From DHVE2 group archaeon (lineage in GTDB: Archaea; Thermoplasmatota; Thermoplasmata; Thermoplasmatales; Aciduliprofundaceae), in assembly GCA_026993785.1 (NCBI GenBank), contig JALWRZ010000010.1, positions 62,001 to 126,000 of the forward strand: DNA of 64,000 bases, in the 5' to 3' direction. A model generated the notes under the pieces. The model was not told where the DNA came from. It saw only the letters and a list, made by a program, of their open reading frames with translations, and made no database searches. Of the stretch, positions 10,281 through 32,982 are shown piece after piece (position 1 is the stretch's first letter; the number at the start of each line of letters is the position of its first letter). A program made the translations under genes and the position numbers.

Positions 10281-10401
10281 GGGGCCGTAGCTTAGCATGG
10301 TTGGAGCACCCGGCTGATAGAGCCCCTTTGGAAAAGGTGCTTCACCCCCAAAGGGTGCTTCAGACACCGGGAGGTCGCCGGTTCAAATCCGGTCGGCCCC
10401 A
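10281..10401 (+). tRNA. tRNA-Ile(GAT) with a 46-base intron
   Basis: Exons fold as GGGGCCG...CGGCCCC with anticodon stem CCCGG/CCGGG, anticodon GAT at 10316-10318 and T-loop TTCAAAT. Between position 37 (10319) and 38 (10366) lie 46 extra bases, at the canonical archaeal intron site. The intron ends can form the bulge-helix-bulge that the splicing endonuclease cuts, and its middle can pair as CCCTTTGG/CCAAAGGG. No CCA is encoded. Confidence 0.9.
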
Positions 10402-10402
10402 C

Positions 10403-12510: not shown

Positions 12511-12583
12511 GGGGCCGTAGGGTAGCTTGGCATCCTACCACCCTGGGGCGGTGGCGACCCGAGTTCAAATCTCGGCGGCCCCA
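12511..12583 (+). tRNA. tRNA-Pro(GGG), integration target
   Basis: 73 bases with acceptor GGGGCCG/CGGCCCC, anticodon arm CCACC-CTGGGGC-GGTGG (anticodon GGG) and T-arm ending TTCAAATCTCGG. The gene remains intact because the integrating element restored its last 16 bases. A T-rich promoter region lies at 12460-12480. No CCA is encoded. Confidence 0.93.
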
Positions 12584-12624
12584 CTAAAAAGTTTCTCGGT
12601 CCCAACCAAATTTGAACAAACCAT
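12565..12624 (-). pseudogene. 5' fragment of the attP-spanning gene, cut by integration
   Basis: Directly after the integrase stop, the minus strand has AGGAGGTGAG and then an ATG at 12624 that reads MVCSNLVGTEKLFSGAAEI and hits TGA at 12565-12567, just past the att core inside tRNA-Pro. The same frame continues without interruption at attR (32923 downwards), giving a 72-residue protein if the ends are joined. So this is the 5' part of a gene that is whole only in the circular form. The good ribosome binding site and exact frame match argue against chance. Confidence 0.7.
12568..12583 (+). other. attL core
   Basis: AATCTCGGCGGCCCCA, the last 16 bases of tRNA-Pro, occurs again in the same orientation at 32923-32938. 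A tRNA 3' end repeated on the far side of a tyrosine integrase is the classical attachment-site arrangement. Confidence 0.93.
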
Positions 12625-12626
12625 TT

Positions 12627-13502
12627 TTACTCACCTCCTGATTTTTCTTCTACAGAACGGGATTTTACATCATATCCCCCAAATAGATCATCCTTCTCAT
12701 AAATCTGAGAAAGGGTAATTGAAGCGAGTAAAGACTTAAGATATACCTGAGTGGTAGACAAAGATGCATGCCCTAAATACTGTCGGATTGCTTCCAGGTC
12801 CACGCCTTTCCGGTATAGATCAACTGCTCTCCAATGCCTACAAGCATGTACATGCAAAGGTACGCCTAATGCCTTACCTATCTGCCAGAAAATAGCTCCT
12901 ATCGTTTTAATATGAATACGGCCCTGTGGAGTGGTGAAAAGCGCATATTTGTCCGATGCAATACGGTAATATCGAATATATTCCTGGGTTAATCTCCAAA
13001 CTTCCTTGGGCATGGGGATGCGTCTGGAGACATTCATCTTAGAATCACGGATGCTTATCCAGTTCTCAGAAACATCAGAGATGTTAAGATTTGCAATTTC
13101 TCTACGCCTTAACGCCAAAAATGCATAGCGTATTATTAGCTGATTTCTCTTGGTGATTGCTGGATCTGCCCATCTGAAATTCAATATCTTTTTCATATCC
13201 TCATCGGAGGGAATGTATATCTCTTTCACACTCCGTGTGTGCCAGGTTTTCAATTTTATATCTCTGCCCAGAAAACGCATATAAACGTTTATCGCCTTGA
13301 TATCATGATTAAGAGCTACTTTGCCCCGATGCATCTCCTGATTCATGATCCATTTGGTAAGCTCCAGAGATGTCGCAGTTTCTAAATCTATCTCTTGGAA
13401 TATTCTCCTCAATCTGCGATCGTAATCATCTATTGTCGCTCTTCTATAGCGTTCATTGAACATCCACATCAGAAATTCTTCACGATGATAACTCACTCCC
13501 AT
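12627..13502 (-). CDS. int: Tyrosine recombinase, element integrase
   Basis: 291 residues. The SAM-like core-binding domain is at 5-80 and the catalytic domain from about 95. Active-site residues visible are Arg in LALRRREIANL (about 132), H219 and R222 in HACRHWR, H245 in LGHASLSTTQ and the nucleophile Y254 in TQVYLK. It is an intact gene, unlike the SSV-type integrases that are split by integration; here the split gene is the one behind it. It overlaps the upstream wHTH gene by ten bases. Its target is the tRNA-Pro at 12511. Confidence 0.92.
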   Translation of the reverse strand: MGVSYHREEFLMWMFNERYRRATIDDYDRRLRRIFQEIDLETATSLELTKWIMNQEMHRGKVALNHDIKAINVYMRFLGRDIKLKTWHTRSVKEIYIPSDEDMKKILNFRWADPAITKRNQLIIRYAFLALRRREIANLNISDVSENWISIRDSKMNVSRRIPMPKEVWRLTQEYIRYYRIASDKYALFTTPQGRIHIKTIGAIFWQIGKALGVPLHVHACRHWRAVDLYRKGVDLEAIRQYLGHASLSTTQVYLKSLLASITLSQIYEKDDLFGGYDVKSRSVEEKSGGE

Positions 13503-13858
13503 CCCTCCAGTTCTGCTTTTAGCTCTTCAAGATACCTCAACCCAGCTTCAGTGATGCGATAGATCCAGATTACCCTCCCATGTGAACTTGGAACTCCTGT
13601 CTTTGTTGGGCTTACCGGCTCTAAGTAACCTTTACGCCTTAGAGCTCCAAGTACTGCACCCAGCACTTTTCTATTCTTTCCTGGAGGCACAAAATTACGC
13701 AAATCATCAGAGGTTATGTCCCCATTCTCTGCCGCAAGCTTCAAGGCTACAACTTGAAGATACTCATAGACCGGCCTGCCTTCATAGTAGCGAGGCAAAA
13801 CAAAGGTGGCAAAGGGGTCAGTGTAATCGTCCAGCCTGAGCTGGGCTTTTAGCGTCAT
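13493..13858 (-). CDS. Winged-helix DNA-binding protein of the element
   Basis: 121 residues with a winged-helix pattern in the second half: DITSDDLRNFV, GKNRKVLGAVLGALRRKGYLEPVS as the recognition helix region, and a wing GRVIWIYRITEAGLRYLEEL. It overlaps both neighbours (int by 10 bases, the acidic protein by 4), so it is in the integrase operon and could be its regulator or an excision factor. Neither role can be proved from sequence. Confidence 0.7.
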   Translation of the reverse strand: MTLKAQLRLDDYTDPFATFVLPRYYEGRPVYEYLQVVALKLAAENGDITSDDLRNFVPPGKNRKVLGAVLGALRRKGYLEPVSPTKTGVPSSHGRVIWIYRITEAGLRYLEELKAELEGWE

Positions 13859-14142
13859 ATGATTATTCCACCCCCATACTCGTCCTCACCGTCTTTTATC
13901 TTCTCAATCTCTTCGATTATCTCATCCAGAATGTCCAGGTTCTCAAGCTTCTCTTCATCAAAAAGCGCCCACTTCTCTAACTGCAGAATCGTGAGCCTTA
14001 CTATCGCCTCGATCTCTTCATATTCAAGATACATCAAATCTGGACGGTGCGGGGCTTCTTCTACAAAAATCGTGTCTATGATCTCCTGGATCAGCGGCTC
14101 CGGGAAAATCTGGGTAGGGAGATTTCGCTCGGACATAATCAA
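13855..14142 (-). CDS. Small acidic helical protein of the element
   Basis: 95 residues, strongly acidic and helical (YLEYEEIEAIVRLTILQLE, then LDILDEIIEEIEKIKDGEDE), ending GGGIII. No known domain recognised. A second Met three codons in (MSERNLPTQ) is an equally good start. Four-base overlaps on both sides show translational coupling in the integrase operon. Confidence 0.65.
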   Translation of the reverse strand: MIMSERNLPTQIFPEPLIQEIIDTIFVEEAPHRPDLMYLEYEEIEAIVRLTILQLEKWALFDEEKLENLDILDEIIEEIEKIKDGEDEYGGGIII

Positions 14143-14471
14143 AGCACCTCCTCAGAAACTTCAATGAGTTCTTCTCCTCTCTCTCCAAATAAATCCCTTG
14201 CGAGCTCCTTCAGCTTCTCAACCCTCTCTTTTCTTCTTTTGTTGTCATACGAGTTTGCCGCAAGCAAGAAATACATAGCCCACATCATTATTATCAAAGT
14301 ACCGTAGAAAAAAAGTGTGCCCACGATATCCCTCACAAATGCAGACACTGCGACGGTTATTATCGAGATTATTGAGAGAACCATCAGAAGTATTTTTATT
14401 CCATTGCTCTTCATTGCATACTCCCACAGAGTTTGGTCAGGCATTGGATTCCACCCCCCGGTGCTGCTCAT
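14139..14471 (-). CDS. Small two-span membrane protein of the element
   Basis: 110 residues with two adjacent hydrophobic spans at about 29-50 (IKILLMVLSIISIITVAVSA) and 55-78 (GTLFFYGTLIIMMWAMYFLL), then a charged tail KRRKERVEKLKELARDLFG. It has the shape of a small envelope or coat protein of a membrane virus, but no family is recognised. It overlaps the ribbon-helix-helix gene before it and the acidic protein after it. Confidence 0.65.
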   Translation of the reverse strand: MSSTGGWNPMPDQTLWEYAMKSNGIKILLMVLSIISIITVAVSAFVRDIVGTLFFYGTLIIMMWAMYFLLAANSYDNKRRKERVEKLKELARDLFGERGEELIEVSEEVL

Positions 14472-14622
14472 AAAAGTTTAAAAGATAATTCACCGCTTGC
14501 CCTAATGTGTCGAGCTCTTCTCTGTGCATCACTTTCTTTAGACGCTTCCAATCCTCCATACTTATTCTTACTTGCATAGCCTTCTTCACCTCCTTTTTTG
14601 TCGATGTTGTAGATAACATCAT
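14437..14622 (-). CDS. Ribbon-helix-helix regulator A
   Basis: 61 residues with a ribbon-helix-helix core: KAMQVRISMEDWKRLKKVM (strand and helix 1), LGQAVNYLLNFYEQH (helix 2). The start could be ATG 14622 or the internal Met before QVRIS. It heads the minus-strand integrase operon and faces regulator B1 across a palindrome-rich gap, so it probably controls both directions. Confidence 0.72.
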   Translation of the reverse strand: MMLSTTSTKKEVKKAMQVRISMEDWKRLKKVMHREELDTLGQAVNYLLNFYEQHRGVESNA

Positions 14623-19008: not shown

Positions 19009-19581
19009 ATGAAAGAATACAAAAGAAGAATTGTGAATGGCAAAGGTGCAGCTTATATCAATATCCCCAAAAAATTGATGGAATCTATGGGGTGGGAGAT
19101 AGGAGATTCCGTGTATCTGTTTCCCAACTCTTCTGGAATATTTCTGTCTACTCCAAAGGTCTATACTCTAGGATATGAAGGGTTATCTCTGAAAAAATTT
19201 AAAGAGATACTCAAGAAGTATAGGATACAACAAGTTATTGATGTGCGAAATACTCCTTGGAGTGCAAATCCCGTGTTTAGAAGTGGGTACCTGGATAAAG
19301 TGCTAGAAGAAGCGGGTATTTTCTATTATAATATACCTAGGGTTGGTGCTCCCAAATCGTTGAGAAATATAATAACTAGTGATGGATATGAGGCCTTTTT
19401 TGAAAAATATAGAAGATATTTAAGAAATCAGAGAAAAGCTTTCAAATTATTAATGAAGCTGATAAACAATGGTAGAACTTTACTCTTATGTTATGAGAAA
19501 GATTGGAATATATGCCATAGAAAAATAATTGCTGAAGAATTGGAAAAACGAGGTTATGAGGTGGTACATATTGAGCACTGA
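19009..19581 (+). CDS. AbrB-like domain fused to DUF488
   Basis: 190 residues. Residues 1-45 (KRRIVNGKGAAYINIPKKLM then WEIGDSVYLFPNSSGIFLS) are a SpoVT/AbrB swapped-hairpin DNA-binding domain. Residues 50-190 are DUF488: VYTLGYEGLSLKKFKEIL, VIDVRNTPWSANP, and the hallmark LLLCYEKDWNICHRKIIAEEL with Cys, Glu and CHR. DUF488 proteins have no settled biochemistry; several sit in defence or DNA-modification neighbourhoods. The fusion to an AbrB domain is unusual. The DNA here is much more AT-rich than the rest of the element, suggesting later acquisition as cargo. It overlaps the next gene. Confidence 0.75.
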   Translation: MKEYKRRIVNGKGAAYINIPKKLMESMGWEIGDSVYLFPNSSGIFLSTPKVYTLGYEGLSLKKFKEILKKYRIQQVIDVRNTPWSANPVFRSGYLDKVLEEAGIFYYNIPRVGAPKSLRNIITSDGYEAFFEKYRRYLRNQRKAFKLLMKLINNGRTLLLCYEKDWNICHRKIIAEELEKRGYEVVHIEH

Positions 19582-20619: not shown

Positions 20620-21231
20620 TCAGACACCGGCACGGTAACAGATTGTTTTTACTGTGCTATACTTGATTCCTGTCTTCTCTGAAATCTCTTTGAGGGTATA
20701 ACCCTTTTTCCTCAGGTTTAGAATCTGTTCTTTTAGTTGATCAGATATTTTAGGGGGTCTCCCTATGCGCTTCCCAGCTTTCCTGGCCTTTTCCATTCCT
20801 AACTTAGTGCGCTCTGAATTACTCTCTCGCTCATACTGTGCAAAGGAGACCAGTATATGAGCAAGAAGCCGACCTGATGGTGTACTCATGTCCAGTCCTT
20901 CAGTCACCGATGCAATTTTAGGCCCTATCTTCTCCACAATCTTAGTGAAATCATTAACGCTTCTTGTGATCCTGTCGAGCCTCCAGGTTATGAGCATGTC
21001 AGCTCCCCCCTCCTCAATTAAATTCAAAGCTTTATTAAGCTCTTTTCTCCTCTGTAAGCTCCCAGTTTTGGCGGTTTTTGGCTCTTTATACTCCAGAACC
21101 ACGTTCCATCCTTTGGCCTTTGCGTAGGCCCTGCATGCCTCAAGCTGAGCCTCTATGCTGTAGCCCTTTCGCTTCTGCTCTTCCGTCGAGACCCGGGCAT
21201 AGATTATTGCTCTCATATTACGGGAAGCCAT
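20620..21231 (-). CDS. Small serine recombinase (resolvase/invertase family)
   Basis: 203 residues. The catalytic domain has IIYARVSTEEQ with nucleophile Ser15, GYSIEAQLEACRAYAKAKGW, DMLITWRLDRITRS, SGRLLAHILVSFAQYERE and the long E-helix; the C-terminal 45 residues are a Hin-type helix-turn-helix (YTLKEISEKTGIKYSTVKTIC). It is the last gene of the minus-strand morphogenesis operon, with GGAG four bases before ATG 21231; ATG 21216 is also possible. It could resolve multimers of the circular form or invert a segment; no paired inverted site was found. Confidence 0.88.
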   Translation of the reverse strand: MASRNMRAIIYARVSTEEQKRKGYSIEAQLEACRAYAKAKGWNVVLEYKEPKTAKTGSLQRRKELNKALNLIEEGGADMLITWRLDRITRSVNDFTKIVEKIGPKIASVTEGLDMSTPSGRLLAHILVSFAQYERESNSERTKLGMEKARKAGKRIGRPPKISDQLKEQILNLRKKGYTLKEISEKTGIKYSTVKTICYRAGV

Positions 21232-31016: not shown

Positions 31017-31232
31017 TCAAAATAGAAGGATGCGGTAACTGCCCTCCTGGCGCTCTCCCTTGACACCAAGCTCCTCCAGAAGCACCCTCGTTATCCTTAT
31101 CTTTTCCCCAATTTCAAGCCTCCTCCCTAAGCGCCTTGAAATCTCAAGATGTACATCAAATTGCGTCACGCTCTCCTGCTTCGATGCTAAATCACGATAT
31201 ACGCTCAATATTAACCTGCGTGGAATCCTCAT
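31017..31232 (-). CDS. Small DNA-binding-like protein
   Basis: 71 residues: RRLILSVYRDLASKQESVTQ, FDVHLEISRRLGRRLEIGEK, IRITRVLLEELGVKGERQEG, SYRILLF. Helix pattern fits a small winged helix. It overlaps the large wHTH gene by four bases and precedes the morphogenesis promoter, so it may be its activator. Confidence 0.6.
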   Translation of the reverse strand: MRIPRRLILSVYRDLASKQESVTQFDVHLEISRRLGRRLEIGEKIRITRVLLEELGVKGERQEGSYRILLF

Positions 31233-32560
31233 GCGTAGCCCTCCACCTCGCCACCGGCCAGATTCTCATTGTGTATGTTCTTCAAAATATCTACAAATTC
31301 ACGCATCACATTCTTTATTTCCTCTGTTGATCTTATTATCGCATTTGCTGCCTGAGAATTGAGGAATAACTGTGCTTTCGTCTCCTCCCCTATCTTGTAG
31401 AAATATTCTTTCATCTCTTTTGTTGTCCTGTCTAATTCAACCAAGACATCCGCAAAATAAGCACTCCAGAAAGCACTGCCCGCTATGTTCTGCATGAAAA
31501 GCTCACTTGCTATCTCTACCTTTTCTGCATCGCCCTGGAAGCCTATATCTCCATCACTAAACTCTGAAAAATCTACCTGTGATTTTAAATTGTTGCCCTT
31601 GTATATCTTTATTATATCTCCAAGTGAGTACTCTTTATGCTTCATTGCCCCTCTTATCTTCGCTAATACTGCCGCCTCTTCTCCAAACACTTCCCTTACT
31701 TCTTGAAGCCATAGTTCATCCTTCGGCGTTATCATCACATACCCGTTCTTTGTGATTATTGCGTTAAGGTGTCGCCCCGTGAAACGCATCTTTCTCGATG
31801 GATCCTTCGGGTTGATCGGTTTGAGATGGTATCTCTCTATAAGCTCTTTCAATCTCCAGGGAGAAATTTGAATGTCCACTCTTGGAGCATGCTCGCTTAC
31901 TCGAATTGAAACAGGCGACAGGGTACCCCCGTGCTTCTGCAACTCGCTAACAACTGCAGTTTTTGGTACCCCTGGGGTGGTCGCACCCCTCTCTGGAGAA
32001 TTTGAAACGCTGAAAAATTCTCTTATCCCAGGCAGATTTACATAGTATCTATTGTATCTGAAATTAAGAAAACCACGGCGTTTCAAACGATATATAATCA
32101 CTCTATAAGTGTTTCGGTTGAGCGGGAAATGATATTTGTATTTCAGTGAATCATAGAACTTGTCAGAATCAAAAAATTCTATATTGTTGTTCATAAGAAT
32201 CGCCAAGAACCTCCTTATGAGCTTACTCCTAATGCCGTTTCGTTTCACTTTTTTAGAATTTGAAACGGCTTTGCTTGGAAAATTAGTTGTAGACCTGACT
32301 TTTTGGGTGTCGCCCTGTACCCTCAAAGTGTCGCCCTGTGTCGCCCTGTTTGAAACGGAGTGTCGCCCTCCTGGAGAAAAAATATATTGCCCTCCAGAAC
32401 GGTCAAGAATGCCCCGGTAATAAAGCCTTGAAACTATTTTGCTCACAGATTTATATGTTGTTTGGATGCCTCTATTGCGCAGTATGTAAAATACTTCTTT
32501 CGGTGTTAGGGCGACACCTTTTTGAAACGTTTCTATTACTGCACTTGTGACTGTCGTCAT
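31229..32560 (-). CDS. Multi-winged-helix protein (candidate replication initiator or partition protein)
   Basis: 443 residues. A wHTH at 1-62 (LTPKEVFYILRNRGIQTTYK), a linker 65-105, a second wHTH at 110-180 (FDSDKFYDSLKYKYHFPLNR), a third region near 210-260 (WRLKELIERYHLKPINPKDP) and a helical C-terminal 180 residues ending IRSTEEIKNVMREFVDILKN. Linker codons contain iteron-like TGTCGCCCT repeats, so the protein may bind DNA within its own gene. No Rep superfamily motif (RCR, helicase or Orc1) is visible; replication function is inferred only from repeats and position. Confidence 0.62.
   Translation of the reverse strand: MTTVTSAVIETFQKGVALTPKEVFYILRNRGIQTTYKSVSKIVSRLYYRGILDRSGGQYIFSPGGRHSVSNRATQGDTLRVQGDTQKVRSTTNFPSKAVSNSKKVKRNGIRSKLIRRFLAILMNNNIEFFDSDKFYDSLKYKYHFPLNRNTYRVIIYRLKRRGFLNFRYNRYYVNLPGIREFFSVSNSPERGATTPGVPKTAVVSELQKHGGTLSPVSIRVSEHAPRVDIQISPWRLKELIERYHLKPINPKDPSRKMRFTGRHLNAIITKNGYVMITPKDELWLQEVREVFGEEAAVLAKIRGAMKHKEYSLGDIIKIYKGNNLKSQVDFSEFSDGDIGFQGDAEKVEIASELFMQNIAGSAFWSAYFADVLVELDRTTKEMKEYFYKIGEETKAQLFLNSQAANAIIRSTEEIKNVMREFVDILKNIHNENLAGGEVEGYA
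32308..32370. repeat. Iteron-like repeats TGTCGCCCT
   Basis: TGTCGCCCTG occurs at 32308-32317, 32329-32338 and 32339-32348, and TGTCGCCCTC at 32361-32370. An inverse AGGGCGACA lies at 32508-32516, and a variant GGTGTCGCCCCG near 31769. A second motif, TTTGAAACG, accompanies them (around 32259, 32349, 32519 and 32004). They lie in the region encoding the linker of the multi-wHTH protein. Confidence 0.75.
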
Positions 32561-32673
32561 AGTATCTCTATGATGCCACTCCCAAGCGCTTTCAACTTCT
32601 CAAGCGCTTCCTCAAAGCTCTGTGCTGAATCTATCACTTTCTTTGTCTTCAGATCTTTAATGTAGTAGATCAT
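32557..32673 (-). CDS. 38-residue protein
   Basis: Minus strand MIYYIKDLKTKKVIDSAQSF followed by EEALEKLKALGSGIIEIL. GGAAGGAG lies immediately before the ATG, and its TGA overlaps the ATG of the multi-wHTH gene, so it is very likely translated. Beta-beta-helix-beta pattern; no family. Confidence 0.6.
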   Translation of the reverse strand: MIYYIKDLKTKKVIDSAQSFEEALEKLKALGSGIIEIL

Positions 32674-32764
32674 CTCCTTCCCTCCTTAGCTCCTCATTTT
32701 GAAACATTATGAGAAGCGCCGTATGCGGTAGCTTGCTCATCATTATCATGCTGCCCTGTCTCAT
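32657..32764 (-). CDS. 35-residue protein
   Basis: MRQGSMIMMSKLPHTALLIM then FQNEELRREGDDLLH. It begins with an ATGA overlap at the stop of the attP-spanning gene and overlaps the start of the 38-residue gene. Its reality rests on that coupling. Confidence 0.45.
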   Translation of the reverse strand: MRQGSMIMMSKLPHTALLIMFQNEELRREGDDLLH

Positions 32765-32982
32765 AGTTCTCCCTCCAGGAATAAGATAAGCTCCTGTGGG
32801 CTTGGCTCCCACCAGTGGCCTGCCTCAAACCATCTTTCTACTAACTCCTTTATCCTCTCTTTCTCTGTGCCCTGAAAAATCTCCGATTGGCAAATCTGTT
32901 CCACAATGCTATTTATTCTGTCAATCTCGGCGGCCCCATTTTTCCAAGGTTGCGTCCCATTCAGATCTAAACATTTTTTCAT
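32761..32982 (-). CDS. 3' part of the attP-spanning gene, with a host-derived start
   Basis: In the integrated state the frame opens at ATG 32982 in flanking DNA (MKKCLDLNGTQPWKN) and continues over attR into the element as GAAEIDRINSIVEQICQSEI, KERIKELVERWFEAGHWWEP and LILFLEGEL. Residues after the att core are element-encoded and helical. In the circular form the first 14 codons come instead from 12624 downwards, behind a strong ribosome binding site. No good ribosome binding site was seen for the 32982 start, so this half may be silent when integrated. Confidence 0.55.
   Translation of the reverse strand: MKKCLDLNGTQPWKNGAAEIDRINSIVEQICQSEIFQGTEKERIKELVERWFEAGHWWEPSPQELILFLEGEL
32923..32938 (+). 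other. attR core
   Basis: AATCTCGGCGGCCCCA, the second copy of the tRNA-Pro 3' end. The flanking bases differ from attL on both sides (GTC before, TTTTT after), fixing the repeat at 16 bases. Confidence 0.92.

Follow-up and report, generated by a model that had tools for sequence, protein, structure and literature searches.

Can an archaeal element that sits in its host chromosome carry a gene that becomes whole only when the two ends of the element are joined, and what would such a gene do for the element? The question is raised by a 20,355-bp element in the window, by which we mean the whole 64,000-nucleotide stretch of DNA analysed here, taken from a hydrothermal-vent archaeon of the DHVE2 group (genome G000, 1.66 Mb in 14 contigs). 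A preliminary description of this DNA had proposed that a small gene directly behind the integrase gene, int, is split by integration, and had offered three functions for it, namely a signal of the excised state, a replication switch or a regulator of int. We have compared the locus with its counterparts in the host family, represented by 18 genomes of DHVE2 archaea, and with known systems in which integration divides a gene.

The element and its attachment site

The element is bounded by the only two copies of a 16-bp core, AATCTCGGCGGCCCCA, in the window, one at 12568-12583 (attL) and one at 32923-32938 (attR), both read on the plus strand; in shuffled sequence 0.06 matches would be expected, allowing up to 2 mismatches. 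The left copy lies in the 3' end of a tRNA-Pro (GGG) gene found by ARAGORN (12511-12584, plus strand), which represents attB. Next to it on the minus strand is int (12627-13502), encoding an intact, XerA-like tyrosine recombinase of 291 aa (PF00589, E 1.2e-22) whose best NCBIfam match is archaeal XerA (XerA_Arch, E 7e-30, below that model's cut-off). Four overlapping small genes lie upstream of int on the same strand (13493-14622; ORFs 13493-13858, 13855-14142, 14139-14471 and 14437-14622) and probably form one operon with it. The first of these, 13493-13858, has a 67% identical counterpart in the related genome G009.

Other features of the region were also recorded. A serine resolvase of 203 aa with a catalytic domain and a helix-turn-helix (20620-21231; 63% identical in G009) is encoded within the element and is a second recombinase beside the tyrosine integrase, perhaps a dimer resolvase. 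At 19009-19581 on the plus strand, within a cargo segment of low G+C, lies a gene for a 190-aa protein whose N-terminus weakly matches an AbrB-type antidote. An intron-containing tRNA-Ile (GAT) at 10281-10402, detected only with introns allowed, is of the tRNA type used by the G009 element.

A gene divided between the two ends

When the ends of the element are joined exactly at the core, an open frame of 72 codons results (MVCSNLVGTEKLFSGAAEIDRINSIVEQICQSEIFQGTEKERIKELVERWFEAGHWWEPSPQELILFLEGEL, then the stop), as the preliminary description had claimed. Its ATG (12624-12622) lies two bases past the int stop (12629-12627), and its Shine-Dalgarno (SD) sequence, AGGAGGTGAG, lies within the last int codons (12630-12639, minus strand). 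We also reproduced what had been said of the integrated state: the 5' part (12565-12624, minus strand) runs for 19 codons until a TGA within tRNA-Pro, int ends before the core and stays intact while its neighbour is split, and the 3' part (32761-32938, minus strand), consisting of the core, 53 codons and the stop at 32763-32761, stays open into host DNA, where an ATG at about 32985 provides the weakly placed host-derived start. The right end carries the body of the gene and the left end carries the ribosome binding site, the start and a variable leader, with the tRNA-derived core between them. Since neither half resembles a gene, annotators miss such genes in every integrated copy.

The 57 residues from the core onward, when predicted alone with AF2, form three helices with a pLDDT of 92.6, and in this model helix 1 starts in residues encoded by the tRNA-derived core. 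The domain has a conserved signature, GHWWEPS..ELL.FLEGEL. No family in Pfam, PHROGs or NCBIfam matched the split gene, and sequence and fold searches of the three-helix domain against the PDB gave nothing significant. Among 390 surveyed genomes of the phylum, none outside this archaeal family held a convincing homologue, a search of viral_contigs through both int and the gene family gave no related loci, and phage and plasmid records held no relative of the split gene.

A natural junction and the right ends of integrated copies

A joined form of the gene occurs naturally in G009, a single-contig genome in which two units of a related element lie in tandem at an intron-bearing tRNA-Ile (G009:C1:157290-192340, L037/L038); each unit measures 17.52 kb, and the pair is 99.98% identical. 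Compared with the window element, the int product is 80% identical and many of the other genes are 55-75% identical. The left end of this array carries a split 5' part and its right end a 3' part without any start codon, and the middle junction is an exact core join with an intact frame, (GTG)KSSNLDGTGKIRNGADRI followed by ERILRHYKRIYPNTIFRDEDLRKLLEEWAEKGYAKIPTEGELLALLEGEI, preceded by the SD GGAGGTGAT. The claim that the gene is whole only in the circle is thus correct in that integration splits it, but it must be widened to any attP-type junction, since a tandem array also restores the frame.

At the attR of G009, G010:C18, G010:C55, G005 and G012 the frame is closed by a stop shortly before the core, and the interval holds neither ATG nor GTG nor TTG; the attR of the window, G010:C37 and G008 have weak, host-derived candidate starts. 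Since several attR sites lack a start codon, the domain would normally be without one when the element is integrated. A start codon inside the 3' part was considered and rejected. The natural reading of these sites is that the protein would be produced solely from attP-type junctions, although the weak host-derived starts in the window, G010:C37 and G008 could allow some of the 3' part to be made while integrated.

Conservation of the frame among relatives

The preliminary description had pointed to homologues behind int, and to conservation of the frame across att, as a means of checking the gene, and such homologues were found. Att-spanning frames of this kind occur in family elements at tRNA-Pro, -Ile, -Met, -Lys and other tRNA genes. 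In a profile search the 3' domain was detected at 17 strong places in 12 of the 18 family genomes, and 5' parts homologous to that of the window occur in G009, G010 and G004, in the latter two behind int at tRNA-Met. The 3' part on contig C18 of G010 completes the G010 5' part to a 72-aa product that is 64% identical to that of the window.

All nine native pairs of 5' and 3' ends are in frame (window, G009, G010 Met, G010 Lys, G010:C55, G008, G005, G012 and G011), where ends were paired by genome and core and not by phase, so that pairs across contigs, most relatives being multi-contig drafts, rest on these two properties. The five naturally fused copies are also open (G009 middle, G004:C71, G003:C55, G002:C184 and G012:C47), including two, G002:C184 and G012:C47, for whose core no second copy was found. 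Neither exact core joining nor conservation of the frame across att was refuted, the G009 middle junction and the relatives being in agreement. Applied to 14 cases, a mechanical rule that takes the best SD with an open start chooses the in-frame start in 12, the exceptions being a tie in G008 and a weakly spaced SD in G012:C47; an SD and a start recur behind int in all lineages. The tRNA-Lys core, AGCGGGCCAGGAGGGA, is read in three ways, as SGPGG in G008 and G005, as AGQEG in G011 and as RARR in G010 and G004, so that all three phases are in use across three lineages, and both ends match each time. At two junctions (G011:C9 with G013:C159, and G011:C52) the 5' and 3' parts come from different elements, and there the phases do not match, which is what heterologous tandem arrays should show.

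Considering phase only, chance agreement across the five leader types for which native pairs exist has a probability of (1/3)^5 = 0.004. The visible purifying selection is a stronger argument than this agreement, with dN/dS values of 0.27 for the window against G010 (5' part 0.20, 3' part 0.24) and 0.18 for G008 against G005 (5' part 0.19, 3' part 0.16). In other pairs the leader is nearly unconstrained, with dN/dS near or above 1 in some, and it therefore looks like a start-and-linker segment. We conclude that the 72-codon frame is a real, selected gene and, as judged from these substitution ratios and junctions, that the split arrangement is maintained by selection in the relatives. The family amounts to a natural experiment: elements at four or more tRNA targets, and a single core read in all three phases, reveal how both ends are constrained.

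Several additional loci were noted in the course of these comparisons. At the mixed tRNA-Lys att junctions L108 (G011:C9), L099 (G011:C52) and L048 (G013:C159) only int tails remain, and these junctions are either remnants of heterologous tandem arrays or assembly joins. L113 (G002:C184) and L112 (G012:C47) are intact family members behind int, at which the core TACCGCACCAGTGCCGCGGGCCG is present once per genome and is unlike a tRNA 3' end. In two distant integrases at tRNA-Pro, L018 (G019) and L016 (G053), the int frame itself continues across the tRNA end, and the C-terminus of Int would therefore differ between the circle and the chromosome.

The operon behind the split gene

The split gene is followed by short ORFs and then by a large gene, all on the minus strand in the window. 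The stop of the split gene overlaps the ATG of a 35-codon ORF (32657-32764) in the sequence ATGA, and similar ORFs with the same overlap are present in G009 and G012. The next ORF, of 38 aa (32557-32673), has a 58% identical homologue in the equivalent position in G011:C9, and the first large gene, encoding a 443-aa protein (31229-32560), likewise has its homologue there (E 7e-16), the two large genes forming a 443/446-aa pair. The 443-aa protein has an N-terminal winged-helix-like segment with a weak Penicillinase_R match, and its AF2 model, with an overall pLDDT of 46, is confident for residues 1-60 only. A Pfam scan found no Rep-Arvir domain (DUF7845), and no replication initiator was recognised in the 443-aa gene. 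The large gene in G010:C55 encodes an HUH rolling-circle Rep (PF23343, E 8e-10), and those in G009, G012 and G008 encode winged-helix proteins, as does that of G002 by similarity to these. We infer that the 443-aa protein is a replication or DNA-binding protein.

In the circle the right-end genes lie on the int strand behind int, and in the chromosome they are cut off from it by about 20 kb. An indicative search of the window from the core to the presumptive rep gene gave no clear TATA box; the right-end operon might have its own promoter.

Proposed mechanism and alternatives

To explain this anatomy, the conserved and selected frame, the order of the operon and the missing start in several integrated copies, we consider it likely that excision links the replication operon to the transcript of int and at the same time completes the split gene, so that the replication proteins would be made from the circle only. 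Circularisation upon excision would bring the right-end operon to lie downstream of the int operon and, in the same step, restore the gene. The int transcript would then run through attP into the replication-type genes, and translation along the joined transcript would be carried by the SD, the ATG and the ATGA overlaps. Integration would break the gene and detach the operon from its upstream part, so that the element would stay replication-silent in the chromosome. The arrangement probably lets the element start replicating only after excision. That transcripts pass through attP, that the protein is made and that it may serve as an accessory factor of replication or circle maintenance are inferred from the experimental model, orf26 of the pleolipovirus SNJ2 (see below). 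A tandem dimer such as that of G009 is predicted to switch the operon on and to express the split gene without excision. Among the three functions offered originally, the replication switch is best supported, since the split gene is followed by the replication-type genes at the opposite end.

Two alternatives accept the circle-specific protein and give it another role. It may be an integration helper or a brake on Int that aids integration or stops repeated recombination, and that integration would switch off by breaking the gene. The split gene is indeed directly behind int in every lineage, and archaeal integrase helpers exist, since Orf2 and Orf3 of SNJ2 raise integration, although they are other viral genes (PMC8371274). 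However, the ATGA overlap and the gene order tie the split gene to the other end rather than to int, it co-occurs with integrases only 33-38% identical to that of the window, and loss of the att-spanning gene of SNJ2 blocked replication and left excision intact. We consider a helper or brake unlikely. Still less probable, in our estimation, is a toxin-like or addiction component that would mark or stabilise the free circle and be silent when integrated. In favour of this, the counterpart in SNJ2 was placed by its authors in a toxin-like family and proposed to be part of an addiction module, but the protein described here is not related in sequence to the HRPV-9 pleolipovirus gene, no toxin family was matched in Pfam, PHROGs or NCBIfam, and no partner antitoxin was recognised.

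The remaining alternatives dispute the spanning frame itself. The left part could be a DNA arm bound by Int, with the frame as a by-product and the real protein being the 3' domain, started elsewhere. The leader does hold arm-type sequence resembling the tRNA T-arm (TTCAAATTTGG..TGGGACCGAG), and its dN/dS is near or above 1 in some pairs. Nevertheless, the right ends with an in-frame stop before the core offer the domain no start of their own, the SD and start behind int accompany it in all lineages, and the ends match in each of the three phases of the tRNA-Lys core, which makes a mere DNA arm very improbable. As to a chance open frame, short frames are commonplace and every frame tends to be open in the antisense of a tRNA T-arm, yet all 14 junctions are in frame over about seven leader types, dN/dS is well below 1 and the conserved domain recurs at its 17 places in 12 genomes; together these in practice refute chance, to which we assign a negligible probability. 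The preferred explanation remains the one in which excision completes the gene and connects the replication operon.

Comparison with known systems

The layout is less novel than the preliminary description implied. Genes in which attP is embedded, located between int and a gene for a CxxC protein, were described in the betapleolipoviruses Halfvol1, SNJ2 and HRPV-9 by Dyall-Smith and colleagues in 2021, who noted that these genes can be made from the circle alone (PMC7911831). The equivalent haloarchaeal layout was put to the test in 2026 in SNJ2 (PMC13107129). There the protein of orf26, which spans attP, was detected, and the operon forms only after excision, its transcription starting within int; nonsense mutations in orf19-26, including orf26, stopped replication and did not stop excision. 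The principle is therefore already known, and the gene described here is a non-homologous version in another phylum. In the literature that we searched we found no report of such a gene in Thermoplasmatota, and one may exist elsewhere.

In both groups the frame begins just downstream of int on the int strand, attP lies within it so that it is split in the provirus and whole at an attP-type junction (here the window join and the G009 junction), and the end of the frame abuts or overlaps the gene that follows (by ATGA in the window, G009 and G012). The spanning gene heads an operon in both, which in the pleolipoviruses ends in replication genes and here leads into replication-type genes, with an HUH Rep in G010:C55. 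The groups differ in that the next gene encodes a CxxC protein in the betapleolipoviruses and none of the 35-, 38- and 443-aa products here is of this kind. The spanning proteins are unrelated, with an hhalign probability of 0.1 against the HRPV-9 gene, the single pleolipovirus gene compared. By BLASTP the window integrase is not detectably close to the SNJ2-type integrase of HRPV-9 (E 0.067); the hhalign comparison lacked the power to match even one tyrosine recombinase with another, and the other element proteins had no match in HRPV-9 in a comparison of low power. Furthermore, the host phylum here is Thermoplasmatota, there is no Rep-Arvir (DUF7845) match, and one relative has an HUH Rep. 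Expression of the spanning gene was demonstrated in SNJ2; for the gene described here it is predicted.

In the integration-dependent immunity of mycobacteriophage BPs, attP also lies inside a phage gene beside int and integration alters the product, but there the interrupted gene encodes the repressor, most of the protein comes from the 5' part, and the shortened form made in the prophage is the active one (PMC4557955). Here, by contrast, the 5' part is a short leader, of 19 codons when integrated, and it is the folded domain that loses its start on integration. In Tn916 transcription likewise depends on circularisation, as excision brings operons at one end under a promoter located at the opposite end; the coupling there is transcriptional (PMC11658703), and here the coding sequence also crosses the junction. 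In the suicidal integrases of the SSV and pTN3 type integration splits an element gene at att as well, but that gene is int itself (PMC8371274), whereas here integration leaves int whole and divides the gene beside it.

These comparisons raise the possibility that an excision-replication gene split arose independently in Thermoplasmatota with a different protein and a different integrase, that the tRNA-derived core was captured as coding sequence at the start of the domain, and that the ends re-matched their phase on each move to a new tRNA or phase, a scenario for and against which we would give equal weight. If the proposed mechanism is right, the completion of a gene by circularisation would be a recurrent archaeal route for coupling excision to replication and not a haloarchaeal peculiarity.
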